DNA of 64,000 bases from Meloidogyne chitwoodi (taxonomy: Eukaryota > Nematoda > Chromadorea > Rhabditida > Meloidogynidae), in the NCBI GenBank assembly GCA_015183035.1, contig JACZZP010000015.1, forward strand, positions 868,001-932,000, written 5' to 3'. The notes beneath the pieces were generated by a model. It did not search any database. It was not told the origin of the DNA and saw only the letters and a list, made by a program, of their open reading frames with translations. Each line of letters starts with the position of its first letter. Within the stretch, counting starts at the first letter, position 1. Positions 5,832 through 45,700 of this stretch are shown here, piece by piece. The position numbers and the translations under genes are program-made.

Positions 5832-6536
5832 TTTCTAATATATTTTTATGCAATTTGATTATTTAATTGTATAAAATAAATTTAATTATCAGAATTATTA
5901 ATTTGATATAAAAGTAATAAATTTATCAATAATTATTATATGATTAACAATGAACTCTGGAAATGGTGGAAAGAAATTAGTGTTCACAAATAATAGAGAG
6001 GGAAGGTACATTATTTTTCGTTGAAGCAATAATATTATTTACCTATAATATTTATCATTAAATTAATTTAGTATATCAGCATGTACTCATAGCATAAACC
6101 AAATGAGTAAAATTGATAATTGTAAATATTTTTATGTTATTATATTTTTTGTCTCTTAACTCATCAGACTTATTCGAATTAATACTTAAAAACTTTTTTT
6201 ATGTTTATTCCTTTGATTACCATTTTTAAAACCTAGTCTTGCCTGGGAGTACCTTTTTTGAGGAACTCTTTTTAGCTACAATTAACATTAATAAATATTT
6301 AATAAGAAATGTGCAAATATATGCCTATTTATTTAAAGTTTAATTTAATATAAAGACCAGACAGACTTAATACCAACAGTCACTAAAATAATTTATTCCA
6401 TGTTGAAGAACATACATCATTTATATAGGTTATAAGTAAATACATAAATTATATTCAAAAACGTTTTAAATATCAACAGTGCTTTATGGTTATTGAAATA
6501 TATACAGATTTAGTATTTCAATATCATTTATTATTA
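5832..6536. other. Intergenic region between TDO and the lysine-rich protein gene
   Basis: About 700 bases. It contains the TDO promoter and the 3' UTR of the minus-strand gene to the right. Apart from the weak candidate gene at 5950-6159, I see no feature. Confidence 0.4.
5950..6159 (+). CDS. Possible small two-exon gene of unknown function
   Basis: An ATG at 5950 opens a 19-codon frame beginning MNSGNGGKKLVFTNNREG. It ends at a good donor (GGAAG|GTACAT). The next AG at 6071 (TTTAG) restores the frame and reads 28 more codons to a TAA at 6157-6159, giving about 47 residues. It is divergent from TDO by about 120 bases. There is no signal peptide or known motif, and a frame this short can arise by chance. 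Low confidence. Confidence 0.2.
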
Positions 6537-7243
6537 TTAGTCATCTCGCCCTTCTCTTTCCGACAGAAAAGCCGATATTGTAGGATAAGGATCCACTTCT
6601 TCTTTCTTCAAACATTCATTCTTGATTCTTGCCTAAAAAGAGTTCCATAAAATTAAGGGAACAATGTATGTTTACCTCTTTTTCATCAAGGGCAAATGAT
6701 CGCGGTTTGATTGGTTCCGAACTCAAATGCTTAAAAATAAAGTTTATTTACGTTAAAATAATAAAGTACTTACAACATCCGCCAGAAGTCCTTTCGACGA
6801 ATCTGAATCATCTCCATCATCATCCTTTCTCTTGCGCTTCTGTTTTTTTGAATGCCTAGAACGCTTCGATTTCTTAGAGCGCTTGGATTTCTTTGACATT
6901 TTTGATAGAGCTTTCTTAGCTGTAGTAGTTTCATCAGGGGTCACTTTTGTAATCATTCCAGCCTTCGACTTCGGCGAGTTAGGGCTGGCTTTTTTAGTAA
7001 CAGTAGTGTCATGAACTGCTACTTCCTTAAATTGACAAAATTAAGAAACAATTAATCCGATTAACTAACCTTCGCTGGAGACATATTACGAGGTTTAGTC
7101 GTCTTGACGGCTTTATTGGCAACTTTATTTGCCTTTGTCTTTTTCTTCTTAGCACAATGAAGTAACAAAGTCGTTATAGACAAAATGGTGAGCAGTGACA
7201 GAAAAGTGAACCACAAAAGCGACGTTATTGACCAAAACTCCAT
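6537..7243 (-). CDS. Single-pass membrane protein with lysine/serine-rich tail
   Basis: Four exons with consensus splice sites, one a full GTAAGT donor. The start (MEFWSITSLLWFTFLSLL) gives one N-terminal membrane helix of about 25 residues, ending before a CAKKKKTKAN stop-transfer sequence. The rest is very basic: KSKRSKKSKRSRHSKKQ and KKQKRKRK followed by an acidic DDDGDDSD patch, then a conserved-looking end EEVDPYPTISAFLSERE and GRDD with stop TAA at 6537-6539. By topology rules the basic tail should be cytosolic, although the lysine-arginine runs would also serve as nuclear localisation signals. The total is roughly 175 residues. I do not recognise the family. The ordered, less basic C-terminus contrasts with the low-complexity middle and is the part most likely to be conserved. 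Confidence 0.65.
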
Positions 7244-31631: not shown

Positions 31632-34600
31632 ATGACTGGCAATGATGACAATAAAATGGGTCGTTGGGGTGCCATAAGTTATGTTTTGGGAAATATTGTA
31701 GGTGCTGGTATTTTTATAGCACCGACAGCTATTTCAAATCAAGTTGGATCGGTTAGTTTTTTAAACAAAAATATACCTATATATATTAAATAAACCTTAA
31801 GGCAGGGGTATCGCTCATCATTTGGTTACTCTCAGCATTTATTTGTACAATAGGCGCCTTTTGCTATTTAGAACTGGGTACAATTGTTAAAAAATCAGGA
31901 GGAGATTTTGCTTATCATTGCTTTGTTAAGTGGTAATAATATTAATTTAGAGTATATTGTATTATTTGTTAATTTAAATAGGCACTGGATTGCCTTTATT
32001 TTTATGGTTTCCGGTTGTGTTATAGTTTATCCAATGCAGGTATATTATATAAAATATTTATTTATAGATCTTCAAAATTTATTATATAATATTTATTTTA
32101 AATTTCTTAAAAAGTATTTTAGCCCTTTTATCAATGCAGTTAGCAATCGCAGCTAGTGCTTCAGGCGAATATATTGTTCAGGCATTGAAATTTTGTATAT
32201 TTTATTTTCCTTTGTTATTCTAAGGGTCTTGGATTTTCTGGTCATCCACATGTTTACTGGCTTAACAAATTATTTGGATTTTCCATTGTTTGTAAGTTAA
32301 TAAGTTTACTCTGAATTAAATTTTTACAATTTTAAGGGATGATCCTTTTTCTTAACTTTTTTTCCATCCGCAGAATTGTTGCCCCTTTTCAAATGATTTC
32401 TTCATTAGCTAAATTAATTGCATGTACTCTCGTTATTGGAGTTGGAGTTTTTCAGATTTTTATGAGAGGTCATTTTAAAAAAGAATACCGTATTTATTCT
32501 AATAGAACGACATGTCGTTCTATTATTCAACCTCCTTCTGGACTGTCGTTCTAATAGAGACTGTCGTTCTAATAGAGACTGTCGTTTTATTATTCAACCC
32601 ATTAAAAAAATATTAAAAATTTTTCAAGCTATATCGGTATAGGTCAGGGGTGTGCCAAATTGAATTGTAAAAAACGAGAACGAGATACGAGTAACGAATA
32701 GCCCCAAAAATACGAGTAATATATTTCAAAAAGGGTAATATTGTGTTGATGGCCCAGACTCCAATCAAGACAATATATATCATTCGAAAGAGCTCATCGA
32801 GCTGACAAGGGAACGTCACAACATGCCACTCACCGATTTTGGCAAAACTTATACCATTCGAAAGAGTTTTTTGAGTAGACACAGAATCCAAATTTTTATG
32901 TGCCCGTTTTAAGGTATTGTAATGTTACGAGCTTTTAAAGTTTCAAAAAAATGTTCCTTTTACTCTTCAAAAGCGTCCCTTTTACTCTACTCTTTATTAC
33001 GCCCTTAAGATCACCTCTCTTCTCTCTTTTCTTTTCCTTGCAGCGGCCGCCAGTTACTCCAAGAAAAAAGAGGAAAAGAAGAGAAGGCAGGCTTCCGCTG
33101 CATGGAAAACAAAAGGAAAATAGAGAATAGAGTTGAACATAAGTGTGGCGATCCTCTTTTTTGAAACTTTAAAAGCTCGTAACTTTACAATACCTTAAAA
33201 CGGGCACATAAAAATTTGGATTCTGTGTCTACTCAAAAAACTCTTTCGAATGGTATAGTTTTGCCAAAATCGGTGAGTGGCATGTTGTGACGTTCCCTTG
33301 TCAGCTCGATGAGCTCTTTCGAATGAGTCTCATATTTGAATTTTTTACCCTAAAAATGCTTGGTCCCTCCTATGATTTTTTGATTTTCAGGGACCTGTAT
33401 CTTGGCTCACATTTGAGATGGGAAACTTTTTTGATGTCATTCGACTAGTTAACTAATTATAAACAATGATATAACGTATAGGTCTAGATTAATTAATGAT
33501 CCTAAAGGAAAAAGGAAAAACTGTCGTTCTAATAGAGACTGTCGTTCTAATAGAGACTGTCGTTCTATTTTTCAACCTCCTTCTGGACTGTCGTTCTAAT
33601 AGAGACTGTCGTTCTATTTTTCAACCTCCTTCTGGACTGTCGTTCTAATAGAGACTGTCGTTCTAATAGAGACTGTCGTTATATTAGAATAAATACGGTA
33701 TTTATTTTCAGAATTTTTTTTAATTTCATAGGCAGTATTTTTGAAAATATTGATGAGTTATTTGTAAACTCTAGCTATTCGCCAGGACAAATTTCTGCTG
33801 CCTTACTTGGTGGTTTTTACAGGTTTTCATTATTAAATTGGTTTATTGTCTATTTATTCATTTTACAGTTATGATGGTTGGGACATTCTAAATTGGGGTA
33901 CTGAGGAAATTCGAAATCCGGAAAAGTTTATATTTTCATCATTTTATTGCTGAAATAAATATATATTTTTAGAATAATGCCCTTCGCTATTATTGGTGGA
34001 ATGGTATTAGTTGCTTTGCTTTATACTGCAATGAATTGTGCTTATTTTACGTTACTTACTGCCAATGAAATGAAAGTTTCCAATGCCGTTGCAATTGTAA
34101 AATATAAAATTTTATATTTTATTTTCTAAATTATTTATAGACATTTATTGAACATATTATTGGTAAACAATTAGCTAGTTGGACAGTTCCCTTATTAATT
34201 AATTTGGTCTTGCTTGGTTCAATTAATGGAACAATGTTTATTGCAAGCAGGTTAGATTTTATTATTATTTTTTTAATTTATTTATAAAATGTAATTTCAA
34301 TTTATATAATTAAAGGTATTTGTTTGCGGCAGCCCGTGAGCGTCATTTGCCATCATTTCTTGCTTGTGTAAATGTAAAAAATGACAGTCCTCGATCTGCT
34401 CTTTTAATTCATGTGAATTAATTTATCTACATATTTGTTAATTTTAGAATATAATTTTTAGGTATTATTTGCATTTATCTTTTCATTCGTTGGTAATATT
34501 GAACAATTAATTGTTTCAATGGGATTTGCTCAATTATTACAACGTTGTTTTACTTTATCTGCTCTTATTTATATTCGATTATATGGAAATATAGAAAATG

Positions 34601-35436: not shown

Positions 35437-38400
35437 ATGGATTCACCTACACCTCGATTAAATTTAAAGTCATCATTAAGAAAAAAACCGTTAATAATAG
35501 CATTTACTGCTCTTTGTGCTTTTGTAATTATTGCTTCTATTACTTTCTGTTTATTAAAACTTATTAAGTAATAAAATTTTTAAAGAATAATTACTTAAAA
35601 TTAAATTATTAAAAATTAAAATAAAATTAATTTTTATATATTAGGAATATTTTACTTTTTTAGAAAACACAATACAGAAGAATTCGAAGTAACAACAATC
35701 TCATCAATAATTACTTCGACAACCGATAATGGAACTTTTAAAAAATATAATTATGTTTATTTTAATTTAATTAATACTTCAGTTTTACATGTTTGGTTAA
35801 AACCAAAACGGGAAGATTTAGTTAAACAATTTATAAATATAAAAATTTATAATTTATTTAGATAGCAACTCTTTATGCAAATATTTCCAAAACAAATTTA
35901 AATGAATCATTTTCTACTCCAATTTTTTATTCAACTGAAATTGGTGCCCCTACTTGGTTTGATTTTGTACAATTGGAGTTGAACTTTAGTGGAATAATTG
36001 AACTTAGTTGGTCAGAGGAAACAACAAATGTTTCATATATTTATGTATATGAACCTGAATATGTAAATACATATATTACTTTAATTTTTATTTTAATTAT
36101 TTATTTTATAGGTTAAATTTGAAGGAATCCGTCCATTATATATTTCTGAGCAGGCAATGTATCCACCTATAGAACAAAGTTTTCACTTTAGACCTCCTTT
36201 GGGTTGGATAAATGATCCGAATGGATTTAGTCGTACTAGTGATGGACTTTATCATTTATATTATCAACATTATCCGCACAGTAAACGTTGGTTTGTTTTT
36301 AATATTTAAATTAAATAAAATCAACATTTAGGTCATCCATATATTGGGGCCATGCCATAAGTTCTGATTTAGTCAATTGGGTACATCAACCAATATTTCT
36401 TCGCCCAAACGACAAAGAATGTGGAAAAGACTGCGGGGATTTTTCAGGTTCAGCTGTCCCTATTGGACATGACGGATTACAAATTTTCTTCACTGACAAT
36501 AATAACAGTTAAAATTTTAAAAATATATCTCCATTGTCTGTTTATTAAAATATTATTAAATTTAAGCACGAGATAATCAACAAATACAGCGAACTATTTA
36601 TACAAAAGACACAATTACACCTTTCAATGAATCAGAAATAATTTTAACTGATTTGCCTGATTTGGAGGAAAAGGGACTAAAATTGACTCTTGATTTTAGA
36701 GACCCAAATGTTTTTATTGGTCCAGAAGGTTATTATTACATGACATTAGGTAGTGGTGATATTTCTGGTTCTGGTGGTGTTATTTTGCTTTATAAAACAA
36801 AGGAAAAACATTCTATACATTCTGGCTGGCAATTCCAGGTGATTTTTTAAATTTATTATTTAATAAAAAATTATATTAAATATTTATTTATTTATTAAGA
36901 ATGTTCTCAAAACAGACAATAACTTTGGAACACAAGTGTGTGAATGTAGCCAAATTATCCAACTTGGTGATAAAAATAGGAGAAGTCAAACATTATATGC
37001 TTTATTATATGCAAGAATGGGTAGTAAAGATGAAGATGGGCGTTCAAATCTTACGCCCATTATTTTGGGAATGTTTAACGGCAATCACTTTGTAAAAATA
37101 TATGAACAAGAATTGGATTTTGGTGCTGGTTCTTTTGGATTTCAAGTATTTTAATTTTTATTCTAATTTCACTAAAAATTAAAAACTTTAGGCATTTTAT
37201 GACCCGATTGCCGATGAAGCACTTCTGATTGGCTGGCTAGCTAATTGGCCGGATTGGGATAGAAATTCGGATTGGCCAACTTCACTTACTCTTCCTTGGG
37301 TTATCAGATGGAATAATAAACATCTTTTGATTGGCCCACATCCAAATATTTTGGGACAATTACGTGATATCGAATTAGATGGAAAAGCATTACAACGTGG
37401 AAATGTTGTTGGATTACCAAATGGAACGGTTAGTATTTAAATTTTATTGATATATTTTATTAATACAAAAATAAACACAAAAAACTGAAAAACCAGATCA
37501 ATAAAGTCATTATACTACAAAATAAACATTTCACAAAATAAAAACGTGAATAAACAAACGAACTTAAGAAATAATTGGTCAAAACATTTCTTTAACTAAA
37601 ACACAGACATTGCAATAACAATATCTTAGCTCAAAGAAATAATGCCAACAAAGACAAAAATAAATATTAAGAGGTCGCCCACCCACCATCCCTGACCTCC
37701 ATTACCACCAAACGGCGAAACATCGGCCACAACCAAACGGCGTAACCTAAGCCACAACTAAACACAAGAATGATGAGAAAATAAGCGGTTTATACAGTAT
37801 CCAACTGTCAAAAACTATTATAAAAGGTGGTGCGACAATTTCGGCTGAGACATTTGCGGCCCAGACACTTGCGGCCCCGACATTTGCGGCTCACTCCTTG
37901 TTCGATTGAGACCGGAAGTTGATTTTTGTATCATTCGACTCAGCTCGATGAGCTCTTTCGAAAGATATATATATTGTCAAGATCGGAATCTGGGTCTTCA
38001 AGTACAACTGTTCCAAAAAATTTTAAAATTCTTGAATCGCAAATGTCGGGACCGCAAATGTCAAAATAGGGGTGAGCCGCAAATGTCGGGACCGCAAGTG
38101 TCTGGGCCGCAAATGTCTCAGCCGCAAAAGTCGGCCATTCTTATAAAATACCCATTTTTAGTTACTCCTAGAGTTACACGAGACCGAGACTTTTGGGAAA
38201 AACCGATACCGAGATTGGAAAATGGGCGAGACTCTCGGTCCGGTCTCGGCGAGACTCTCGGTCTCGTGTAACTCTAGTTACTCCAATCATTTGTCATAAA
38301 AGGACAAACAGACATACGGACAAACATTCTCTTTTAAATAAATAGATATTTATTTAGGCATATGTACGGCTGGCCATAGAATATTATTATTTTTATAATG

Positions 38401-39707: not shown

Positions 39708-42700
39708 ATGAATGTAAAATTGTTAATATTAATTTTATATTCCTTTGTATTTATTTATTTAATTAAAAGTGATATAAGTTTGCATCAAAGTTGGGAGGAT
39801 AATAATTCATTTGAGGATGAAGAAAATGATCCAGAATTACAAGTTTATTTTTATTATTTTTTTATTAAATTTAAAATTAACAATAACATAGTTTAAGTAA
39901 ATATGAATTTAAATATTTGAATTAAATTTATGTTTAATATATAAATAATTATGGGGCGTTCTGTGAGAGGTTAATAATTAATGAAATTATTTGACTTTTT
40001 ATTAATTATTTTAATTTAGTATTCGAGCAAACAAAGACAAGGACCTGTTAGAATTCATGTATGTGACAAATCATCAGGTAATAATTAAAAATTATTAAAT
40101 TTTGAAATTAAAAAGATAAAAGTATTTGTGAATGTATTCCTGGTGGAAATCAAACATTAAAATGCGGAGCTCAAGATCTGAAAAATACAAACTTGATAGT
40201 GCCTAAAGAAATTGGACTTATTGCAATTGCACATTTGGAACGTAATTCAATTAGTTATCTCTTTAAGGTAGTTAATATTAAAAATAAATTTATTTGGATA
40301 AACACAAGTTGAGAAATAAAAATAATTTATTTACAATACCCAAAATATAATGAGATAAATAACTGATGTTAGCTACAAATAAAGTGATTATTTTCTCCGG
40401 ATTGAGAAAAAAGGGCTAATTTCGATTTTCTATCTATCTTTCGAGAATTTTTTAATAGTGATATAATGGCAAAAAAATCTATTGAAAGTCTTAAATCATC
40501 AATTTTTGCTATATATTAGTTCTAAGCTCAGAAGACACAAATTAAGCAATTTTTATTCAACATACATACATAAATAATTACAAAAAGGCAATCATTAAAT
40601 AAATAGAAATGGGTGAATATTCAAATATCAAAAATATACACAATTATACAAATGAACAGCAATATGAGGTGAATATTTATTACTCCTGGTTCTTTATTTC
40701 CTCTCGTCTGTCGTCTTTCAGGGTTCATTTCGTCTTTCAAGGCTTACTTCTTGCTGCCCACCTCCCAATCGAATGGGGTTTCAATGACGCCCTTTGCCCT
40801 CAGAGCTTTTTTGAGCTTGTCGTAATACTAAAAAATGTGGAAATTAGGTTGGTTTTATAATTATGAACAAACACACCATCTGGTATTCTGGAACATCGTA
40901 GTAGCCGAGTGCGATGACGCTTTGTAGAATTTCTATAAATGGCAGCGACTTATACCAAATGTTGTAAAATACCTCCATATTCAGACGGACATCCTTTGAA
41001 GAGATCTCTGAGCATTCCTTCTTCCAAAGCATGGACACGGCGCTTCTGCTCCCCGAGTTCGGTCATGTTCTGGATTCGACGCCACGGGATCCCAGCGGTT
41101 GTCAGCTCCACGATCATGTAGATCTGTTAAAAAGAATTTAATTAATTAAATACGAAGAGCAGCGCACCCAGGACTCCACGTCGTCGGCCCTGCAGTATTC
41201 CATATTCTGAAATAAAAATATGTTTGCTCAAAAATAAAAAAAATCCGCTGACCATGTGACATCGGAGTGCTGCATAACGGGGGGTTCCACGAAATCCAGC
41301 CGCAGAACGTGGTCGACGCAAAGAGTTGTCTTCCCGGACATAACGACGACACATGCCAAAATCAAGGATGTAGATGTTGCGAATGTCCCCTCTACGATCC
41401 GATACTCCAACTGAGTAGTTGCCGGGCTTAATATCCCTGTGCAGATATCCAATTTTATGTAATTCCTCGATTGCTTCCAAAGTTTGCAGGGCCGATCCAA
41501 CGGCAGTTCCCATCGTGAAGTGTTCAGACTTTCGCGCCTTCCGTAGATCATGCAGGGACTTGCCAAGTAGCGTCATGACCATATAGAAGAAATTATCGCG
41601 CTGAATATAATAAAAGAGAAATTATTTTAGGTTAACTCTTATGTAAGAAAGAATCACATAACGTCCGCTCTCGTAGATCTTCGCGAAGTGCTTGAATTGC
41701 TGTCGTCCCGCGTCTTGAAGAACTGTCACGTCCATCATAAGCACGTTGTGCTCAGCATCGCAGTGCTCTGTCTTCAATGCGTAGACCAGTCCCGCACTGT
41801 CTCGTACGCGGTACACTTCGCCGAAAGCTCCAGCTCCAAGGCGGTCGTGAACAATCCAATTCAGGAACTTCTGGCCAGGCTCCAAGCCACGCTTCTTTGA
41901 TGACGACCTTGAGGACATTGAGCAGCGATGTAGGGCAGCAGGAACTAGTAGACGAGAAGTTGAGTTGTGCAGCAGGAACAAGTAGTCGAGCAGCAAGTGA
42001 GTTGAGTTGATGTGCTTAATGTGAATCATTTGGGGTTTTTATACTGGTTAAATAAGTGGCTCGAATGTCACGGCTCGGTATAAAAACCCCAAATGATTAC
42101 ATTAAGCACATCAACTCAACTCACTTGCTGCTCGACTACTTGTTCCTGCTGCACAACTCAACTTCTCGTCTACTAGTTCCTGCTGCCCTACATCGCTGCT
42201 CAATGTCCTCAAGGTCGTCATCAAAGAAGCGTGGCTTGGAGCCTGGCCAGAAGTTCCTGAATTGGATTGTTCACGACCGCCTTGGAGCTGGAGCTTTCGG
42301 CGAAGTGTACCGCGTACGAGACAGTGCGGGACTGGTCTACGCATTGAAGACAGAGCACTGCGATGCTGAGCACAACGTGCTTATGATGGACGTGACAGTT
42401 CTTCAAGACGCGGGACGACAGCAATTCAAGCACTTCGCGAAGATCTACGAGAGCGGACGTTATGTGATTCTTTCTTACATAAGAGTTAACCTAAAATAAT
42501 TTCTCTTTTATTATATTCAGCGCGATGATTTCTTCTATATGGTCATGACGCTACTTGGCAAGTCCCTGCATGATCTACGGAAGGCGCGAAAGTCTGAACA
42601 CTTCACGATGGGAACTGCCGTTGGATCGGCCCTGCAAACTTTGGAAGCAATCGAGGAATTACATAAAATTGGATATCTGCACAGGGATATTAAGCCCGGC

Positions 42701-45700
42701 AACTACTCAGTTGGAGTATCGGATCGTAGAGGGGACATTCGCAACATCTACATCCTTGATTTTGGCATGTGTCGTCGTTATGTCCGGGAAGACAACTCTT
42801 TGCGTCGACCACGTTCTGCGGCTGGATTTCGTGGAACCCCCCGTTATGCAGCACTCCGATGTCACATGGTCAGCGGATTTTTTTTATTTTTGAGCAAACA
42901 TATTTTTATTTCAGAATATGGAATACTGCAGGGCCGACGACGTGGAGTCCTGGGTGCGCTGCTCTTCGTATTTAATTAATTAAATTCTTTTTAACAGATC
43001 TACATGATCGTGGAGCTGACAACCGCTGGGATCCCGTGGCGTCGAATCCAGAACATGACCGAACTCGGGGAGCAGAAGCGCCGTGTCCATGCTTTGGAAG
43101 AAGGAATGCTCAGAGATCTCTTCAAAGGATGTCCGTCTGAATATGGAGGTATTTTACAACATTTGGTATAAGTCGCTGCCATTTATAGAAATTCTACAAA
43201 GCGTCATCGCACTCGGCTACTACGATGTTCCAGAATACCAGATGGTGTGTTTGTTCATAATTATAAAACCAACCTAATTTCCACATTTTTTAGTATTACG
43301 ACAAGCTCAAAAAAGCTCTGAGGGCAAAGGGCGTCATTGAAACCCCATTCGATTGGGAGGTGGGCAGCAAGAAGTAAGCCTTGAAAGACGAAATGAACCC
43401 TGAAAGACGACAGACGAGAGGAAATAAAGAACCAGGAGTAATAAATATTCACCTCATATTGCTGTTCATTTGTATAATTGTGTATATTTTTGATATTTGA
43501 ATATTCACCCATTTCTATTTATTTAATGATTGCCTTTTTGTAATTATTTATGTATGTATGTTGAATAAAAATTGCTTAATTTGTGTCTTCTGAGCTTAGA
43601 ACTAATATATAGCAAAAATTGATGATTTAAGACTTTCAATAGATTTTTTTGCCATTATATCACTATTAAAAAATTCTCGAAAGATAGATAGAAAATCGAA
43701 ATTAGCCCTTTTTTCTCAATCCGGAGAAAATAATCACTATTTAACAATTGCACAAATATAATAGTCTCAATACAACTTCCAATAATCTAAAGAATTTGTA
43801 AGACATTAATTTATTTTCAATTTTTATTCTTTAATTTTATTTGTTATTCTTGTAGAATAAAATTCTTCCTGGCCAGGAAAAGTCTTTACTATTATTAGAT
43901 CTTTCTCAAAATAAAATTGCTGATATAGAGCCTGGTTCTTTTGACAATTTTGTTAATTTATTGGAACTAAAATTAACACAAAATAATTTGGATGAACTGA
44001 GCGAGTTAGTTTCTTCGATAAAATAATTAAAAAATAATTAAATTTTTCCAAATATTAATTTTAAAAAAATTATTATCATTTTATTTCATTTAGTGATATT
44101 TTTACTAAATATCTTGGATCATTACATCAACTTTATTTGGACGACAATTTTCTCAGTATTTTCTTTTAAAAAAAATTTTAAATAATTTAATTAGAATATA
44201 TTTAAGGTAAATTAGATGATGGAGTATTTGATAACCTTAAAAACTTAAAAAAATTAGTTCTTGATGGAAACCGAGAATTAAAAATTTCTAAAAAAGTTTT
44301 TAAATTTTATTTTTAATTTAATTTAAAATATGTTAGATATTATCCTCATCCCTTTCTAATTTGGAAATTCTTTCTCTTGATTCATGTCATTTGGACAAAT
44401 TGGATGATGATTTATTTGAAAATTTACCGTATTTATAAATTAAAAATTATTATATAATTTATTATTTTAGTAATCTTCGTGCTCTTTCATTGTCGGGCAA
44501 TCCATTACGTAAAATTCCAAAAGCAATTTCTCCAGAAAAACTGCCAAAACTTGAAATACTTGTACTATCAGACACTTACTTGGAGTCTCTTAATGATGGA
44601 GAACTTTCAACAGTTGCACCTAATCTTAAAAAGCTTTGTGAGAGAAAATGAAATATTAACTAATTTACTTTTAAAACATAAATAGAAATATTTAATATAT
44701 ACCTATTTTTAAAGATATGCGAAGGAATAGATATTTCAAACGAATTGGTAATTGTGCATTTTGTGGACTAAAACAATTAGAAGTAATTCAAAACTAAAAA
44801 TAGAATTATACTCTTTAAAAATTTAAATTTAGAGCCTTGACTTCTCAGGATCAAAATCTTTTAATGAAATTGATTCAAATGCTTTTGGAAAATCTCCACC
44901 AAAAGAATTAAAGCAGATGAACTTAAATAATTGTAATTTTAGTACATTACATGAAGGAACACTTAAGAATGTATATTGGAGTACAATGCAAAGATTAGAA
45001 CTTGAAGGAAATCCTTGGGTAAATAAAATAAATATTTTTTAAATAAATTTAAATATTAAAGAATTGTGATTGCCAACTTAAATGGCTAATGCAGAATGAA
45101 AATGCTATGCGAACAGCATCTGAAAAATCTGAACCAATGTACAAATAAATTATTTTTAAAAAATTTTCTTTAAAGTTGCAACTCACCGGAAAATGTTAAA
45201 GGACAAGCCCTTTACGAAGCTAAAGACCACATTGACTGTGGATCTACTATTAATGGTGGTGTTTCTTCTATGGGCAAAACAATGGTGTTTATGATAATAA
45301 TGGTATATATTAATATATTTTTTAAATAAAATTTTGACCTTAATATTAATTAACTAAATAGTAAACTATATATAGGCTAGAGGATAATTCTAACCCTCTT
45401 GGATAGACTTTCGCTGAGATATTTTTTTCAACTTTTTTTATAATTATAAATAATAATTTTTTCTAATTTTTCAGATGCTTAGTGCAGCTGTTCTCGTTTT
45501 TGGAATTTTATATGCTCGTAAACATTTTACACTTGCAGGTATATTATTAAACTAAATTTAGTTAAATTATGAAACTAACTCATTGTCAGATTAACATTAA
45601 AAATAATAATATATTTTAGGCCAAAATATTTAAAATAAAACAAAAATATTATTCAAAATTTAGCTCGAATGGCTCCAGATCAAATTGGCTTCTCTGCAGG

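Follow-up and report, generated by a model that had tools for sequence, protein, structure and literature searches.

A tight palindrome of two TTBK-like kinase genes in an LRR-gene intron of Meloidogyne chitwoodi, and its likeness to head-to-head pairs of sperm-type genes

Introduction

How does a complete gene come to lie twice inside an intron of another gene, the two copies facing away from each other and almost without difference, and what could keep them so alike? The question is raised by a 3.36-kilobase (kb) palindrome in a stretch of 64,000 nucleotides (nt) of Meloidogyne chitwoodi (assembly GCA_015183035.1, contig JACZZP010000015.1, positions 868,001 to 932,000 of the forward strand). 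This whole stretch is called the window, and positions without a locus name are counted from its first letter. Each arm of the palindrome holds a kinase gene of the tau-tubulin-kinase-like (TTBK-like) type, and the pair is nested in an intron of an LRR gene. A long palindrome whose arms almost touch would be expected to be unstable, but this genome contains several, and those found have a gene class and a promoter geometry in common. We consider it probable that the window palindrome, a head-to-head pair of TTBK-like genes, is expressed in sperm from a shared bidirectional promoter and kept near-identical by gene conversion between the arms.

In mammals, palindromes of the X and Y chromosomes hold testis genes in inverted repeats whose arms are homogenised by conversion. 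In nematodes, the available part of the work of Zhao et al. (2007, PMC1803023) describes inverted-repeat pairs of paralogs in Caenorhabditis, among them the hsp70 genes F44E5.4/F44E5.5, hsp-16 and the F42F12 genes; their arms frequently resemble each other more closely within one species than across species, and conversion was proposed. According to the accessible portions of two other papers, sperm of C. elegans are enriched in the TTBK SPE-60, which is required for sperm motility and fertility (PMC12436626), and the major sperm protein (MSP) is needed for the locomotion of nematode sperm, the MSP genes of Caenorhabditis being kept alike by conversion inside local clusters of tandem duplicates (PMC5765362).

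Results

Arm-to-arm alignment returned the same coordinates as a preliminary description of this locus, with arms of 1662 and 1661 nt around a unique centre of 33 nt (Table 1). That description had the arms identical except for one extra base at 42023. The extra base is real, but a substitution at 41594, which alters residue 90 of the kinase, had been overlooked; the arms therefore differ by one substitution and one indel. A match of 1.66 kb at such identity is too long for chance. It is the longest inverted repeat detected within the window, and the identity extends over the 3' flank of the kinase genes.

A complete kinase gene in each arm, as described before, is borne out by the splice model, which gives for both arms a reading frame of 312 amino acids in six exons with five GT-AG introns of 40-57 nt, the two genes standing head to head. 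The proteins are identical except at residue 90, which is D in the right copy and N in the left; D90 is found in all three Meloidogyne relatives aligned, which makes the N of the left copy the derived residue. Pfam Pkinase matches the right kinase. The best PDB matches are TTBK1/2 (E about 1e-55), followed by casein kinase 1 delta (3e-31), so that among solved kinases TTBK, of the CK1 superfamily, is closest to the kinase domain. The catalytic residues K49, H141-R142-D143 (HRD) and D167-F168-G169 (DFG) are invariant across an alignment of 11 sequences. The nearest protein relatives are from Meloidogyne enterolobii (85%), M. floridensis (80%) and M. hapla (73%), and further ones are other nematode kinases, some named CK1/WORM6.

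All own-genome searches were run on the 30 contigs of the assembly (47,477,280 bases, 47.5 Mb). A DNA search of it for the arm gave no third copy, the two window arms being the only matches. At the protein level the best-scoring other paralog has 48% identity over 135 amino acids, and others reach up to 56% over short stretches. On these figures no progenitor of the kinase pair was found, and a single-copy gene elsewhere, for which the preliminary description had proposed a search, was not encountered in this assembly. The same searches bear on whether the palindrome is a fold-back mobile element, or a gene captured in one. Fold-back elements have reportedly been described in root-knot nematodes, and other inverted repeats are present in the loci that we fetched. 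However, an element would be expected to have other copies of its arm; the arms here consist of a nematode gene for a kinase, which has introns of its own and relatives in the genus, and no target-site duplication was seen by eye at the arm ends. We find such an origin hardly credible.

The host intron measures 3,588 nt, of which 232 nt are left when the palindrome is removed. The LRR exons on its two sides join in frame, and Pfam LRR_8 matches the joined stretch, in agreement with the earlier view that the flanks are consecutive exons of one LRR gene. The two flanks differ in sequence, and this likewise upholds the interpretation of the palindrome as an inserted inverted gene pair and not the end of a fold-back read. 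Palindromes are difficult for assemblers, and a single kinase gene might have been falsely doubled, or the arms equalised by consensus polishing. A read folded back on itself would show mirrored flanks as well, whereas the unlike flanks here continue the LRR gene; moreover, the arms differ at two sites, the spacer is unique, and the same architecture came up again at seven further loci that we fetched, distributed over five contigs. An assembly artefact is consequently improbable.

Because the intron carries one kinase antisense and one sense, an unspliced host transcript would be self-complementary. The palindrome might then act as a source of double-stranded RNA, the intron folding into a 1.6-kb hairpin that would be diced to small interfering RNAs against the kinase. 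Silencing alone would not explain why both copies retain intact frames and catalytic residues, and we think this role very unlikely.

At the centre of the window palindrome, two TATA boxes of the form TATAAAAA point outward, 35 nt apart, and the ATGs of the two genes are separated by 285 nt. The boxes and the spacer would together form a compact bidirectional promoter, from which both copies may be co-expressed.

SH2-tyrosine-kinase genes and MSP genes show the same layout. When the genome was scanned for kinases, the 140 matches listed included further inverted pairs of equal score. Counting pairs within 3 kb, which yields lower bounds, we found at least seven head-to-head pairs among the 31 MSP matches listed and at least two among the 26 SH2 matches listed, all nine spaced within 0.6 kb. 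Eight of the nine were fetched, L003 among them; the unfetched pair, at C10:1201 kb, shares its centre sequence, on the opposite strand, with L031. Seven of the eight, spread over five contigs, are palindromic (the exception being L036). The tight palindrome had been regarded as notable, but that it is exceptional here is not supported: with seven further head-to-head palindromes verified in the same genome, two of them longer and tighter, we reject the view of a unique oddity. L003, whose gene pieces match SH2 and tyrosine-kinase profiles, has arms of 2,020 nt with 8 mismatches and no indel, and L035 has arms of at least 2,022 nt, the left one running to the edge of the fetched stretch; both have spacers of 22 nt. 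At the centre of every one of the eight palindromes, counting that of the window, two TATA boxes point outward with a gap of 26-35 nt, and the outward pair is present all the same in L036, where the arms are not alike.

The preliminary description had offered a recent origin or ongoing gene conversion as the source of the high identity, and this was the correct pair of alternatives. Evidence on conversion comes from the sister palindromes and not from the window locus. L003 and L035, the SH2-kinase palindromes, share a 22-nt spacer that is reverse-complemented between them, which an inverted copy of the whole unit would lead one to expect. At 8 substitutions and 4 internal indels the two arms of one palindrome agree with each other and differ from the two arms of its counterpart, while sites split within a palindrome number 8 in L003 and 0 in L035. 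Their arms are thus more alike within than between homologous palindromes, a comparison for which the window palindrome has no homologue. Without rewriting from arm to arm, the pattern would need 12 parallel changes. It is what arm-to-arm gene conversion would leave, and conversion appears supported in these two palindromes, with fold-back regrowth of one palindrome from a single diverged arm remaining as the alternative.

A second indication is found in the MSP palindromes L031 and L032, where the 5' leaders are identical at 53/71 and 56/71 positions beside adjoining arms of 98.7 and 98.9% identity. A score-based comparison with shuffles gave z 9 for the L031 leaders and z 13 for those of L032 (0/500 shuffles each) and was weak for L034 (z 3, 5/500 shuffles); an identity measure did not separate the MSP leaders from shuffles. 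Such a boundary between leader and arm would point to conversion or to strong constraint acting locally, and would not be left by a uniformly young duplication.

These observations must be set against a simpler history, in which the window palindrome is a recent inverted copy whose arms have yet to diverge, with no conversion at all. A single substitution and a single indel over 1.66 kb are what such a copy would show, the identity includes a 3' flank that need not be selected, and there is no homologous palindrome for comparison. The changes common to both arms in the sister palindromes and the diverged leaders beside near-identical arms do not fit it. Arm identity across the class also runs from 100% (L034, L035) down to about 90% (L037), so that the class does not look like a single recent burst. 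We regard a young duplication without conversion as possible but rather unlikely.

Several other repeats and duplicates were observed. The runner-up inverted repeat of the window (32780-33326) has arms of about 171 nt with 99.4% identity and 206 nt between them; direct repeats built on TGTCGTTCTATTA/TGTCGTTCTAATAGAGAC adjoin it at 32513-33686, and it may be a small mobile element. At 37816-38150 there is an inverted repeat of 90 nt (83%), with GCCGCAAATGTC-like repeats noted by eye. Other TTBK-like paralogs (L011/L012, L025/L026, L014/L015 and L014/L017) form dispersed duplicates of 1.5-3.3 kb with 93-99.6% identity, separated by distances of tens to hundreds of kb. L028 holds an inverted repeat at 6070-7120 (C12:723-724 kb) with arms of about 447 nt, 99.8% identity and 161 nt between them; it lies about 1.5 kb from a TTBK-like match, and its centre has no outward TATA pair by eye. 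L007 (C3:192 kb) and L008 (C19:90 kb) agree over 7.1 kb at 99.9%, and in each there is an inverted repeat whose arms, about 624 nt long, are separated by 280 nt. C3 is large and C19 is 99.9 kb long; the latter might represent an alternative haplotype, or else a duplication.

Table 1. Features of the palindrome and its host gene in the window
Feature	Position	Strand	Basis
Left arm, 1662 nt, holds left kinase gene	40383..42044	-	alignment
Spacer, 33 nt, unique	42045..42077	.	alignment
Right arm, 1661 nt, holds right kinase gene	42078..43738	+	alignment
Sole substitution between arms, D90 right / N90 left	41594..41594	-	alignment and splice model
Sole extra base, in left arm	42023..42023	+	alignment
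TATA box TATAAAAA of left gene, outward; putative promoter element	42036..42043	-	motif; within divergent pair 42035-42087
TATA box TATAAAAA of right gene, outward; putative promoter element	42079..42086	+	motif; within divergent pair 42035-42087
Right TTBK-like kinase, 312 amino acids, D90	42203..43377; exons 42203-42463, 42521-42868, 42915-42953, 42998-43148, 43189-43244, 43294-43377	+	splice model, Pfam Pkinase, PDB matches, alignment
Left TTBK-like kinase, 312 amino acids, N90	40744..41918; exons 41918-41658, 41600-41253, 41206-41168, 41123-40973, 40932-40877, 40827-40744	-	splice model, alignment
Host LRR-gene intron	40268..43855	+	in-frame join of flanking exons
Host LRR exon 5' of intron, part read; its own acceptor maybe a few bases upstream	40127..40267	+	in-frame join
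Host LRR exon 3' of intron, part read	43856..44003	+	in-frame join; Pfam LRR_8

Discussion

The function of the gene families suggests that these pairs are expressed in the male germ line. For the window kinases a sperm role is likely, judging from what members of the family do (PMC12436626, PMC4105102). The comparison with C. elegans SPE-60, as given in the accessible portion of its description (PMC12436626), is made at family level: the window kinase belongs to the same kinase family, with the HRD motif intact. We suggest that the pair arose by inverted duplication, perhaps through fold-back copying at the short inverted repeat formed by the two TATA boxes. Conversion between the arms would then rewrite them while the spacer stays unique.

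A number of our results weigh against this explanation. The two differences in the 1.66-kb arms of the window palindrome fit a young duplication equally well as conversion. Head-to-head pairing is also not peculiar to sperm-type genes. Cuticle collagens, which are a somatic family, have at least two such pairs among the 42 matches listed, although these are 1.8 and 2.3 kb apart. Nor is pairing uniform across the sperm-linked families, since no head-to-head pair was present among the 45 Metallophos matches listed or, by eye, among the 66 protein tyrosine phosphatase matches listed. Kinase genes are also found tail to tail: the pair at L004 2565-7813 (C1:1687-1692 kb) has arms of about 1.2 kb at 100%. 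That pair, with a GC content of 0.23 and about 2.8 kb between its arms, is a different kind of inverted pair. Base composition gave no sign of conversion. The coding GC of the window kinase is 51% by the splice model, or 47% by the measure used on the paralog loci, and a coding GC of 44-49% is found at 9 of the 20 paralog loci that lie outside the palindrome; GC-biased conversion as the cause of GC-rich coding is thus unsupported, other members of the family being GC-rich too.

The genome-wide census of TATA pairs belongs with these points. An exact match to GTTTTTATA...TATAAAAAC with a gap of 14-44 nt was present at 17 divergent places and at no convergent one; controls with the pattern read backward gave 22 and 20, so there is no excess in number and the orientation contrast alone is striking. 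The 17 places include repeated families and are not 17 independent cases. Five of them are pairs described here, and at another that was read (L038, C2:446 kb) there is no inverted repeat. The CTTTTATA form likewise has no excess, with 21 divergent places (three of them pairs described here) against 32 convergent ones and backward controls of 159 and 43; the convergent matches displayed include a repeat family. The census is mixed, a genome-wide excess of divergent TATA pairs is not established, and the geometry is constant in the described pairs only. As a separate observation, a convergent motif TATAAAAGAGAATGTTTGT...CTTTTATA recurs in this genome (G000) among the matches listed with letters, of the 32 places, and resembles the termini of small inverted-repeat elements.

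The window pair has the layout described for Caenorhabditis by Zhao et al., with inverted paralogs, near-perfect arms and a short unique spacer. The available part of that paper (PMC1803023) describes paralogs, in divergent or in convergent orientation, that lie in near-perfect inverted repeats with short spacers, the arms being 2,207 bp for F44E5.4. The pairs named in it include heat-shock genes and others, but no sperm kinases or MSP genes; the spacers of its two detailed examples are 126 and 414 nt, compared to 22-33 nt in the kinase palindromes here; and that part contains no description of TATA geometry or of nesting in introns (PMC1803023). For Caenorhabditis MSP genes, the portion of PMC5765362 available reports tandem clusters, and the terms "palindrom" and "head-to-head" are absent from its text; in M. 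chitwoodi, at least 14 of the 31 MSP-domain matches listed stand head to head.

Compared with the mammalian X and Y palindromes, the likeness is that what are probably male-germline genes lie in inverted repeats whose arms are likely homogenised by conversion. The difference is one of scale and distribution, as the arms here are 0.6-2 kb long with one gene each and occur on several contigs. Among the open-access titles listed in our searches, none dealt with palindromic sperm-gene pairs of a plant-parasitic nematode. Inverted paralog pairs are already known in Caenorhabditis; that they recur in three sperm-type families, and with a single promoter geometry, seems to be new.

More tentatively, and with less confidence than in our explanation of the window palindrome, key sperm genes (MSP, SPE-8-like SH2 kinases and TTBK kinases) might be stored in this genome as dispersed mini-palindromes. 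The central TATA boxes would serve both as bidirectional promoter and as fold-back seed, and conversion would keep the pairs identical. The arrangement would parallel, on a small scale, the palindromes of mammalian sex chromosomes that hold testis genes. The small genome makes it possible to test how such palindromes originate and survive, and whether sperm genes benefit from paired, converting copies. If the idea is true, counts of nematode sperm genes and estimates of their expression would require palindrome-aware assembly and mapping.

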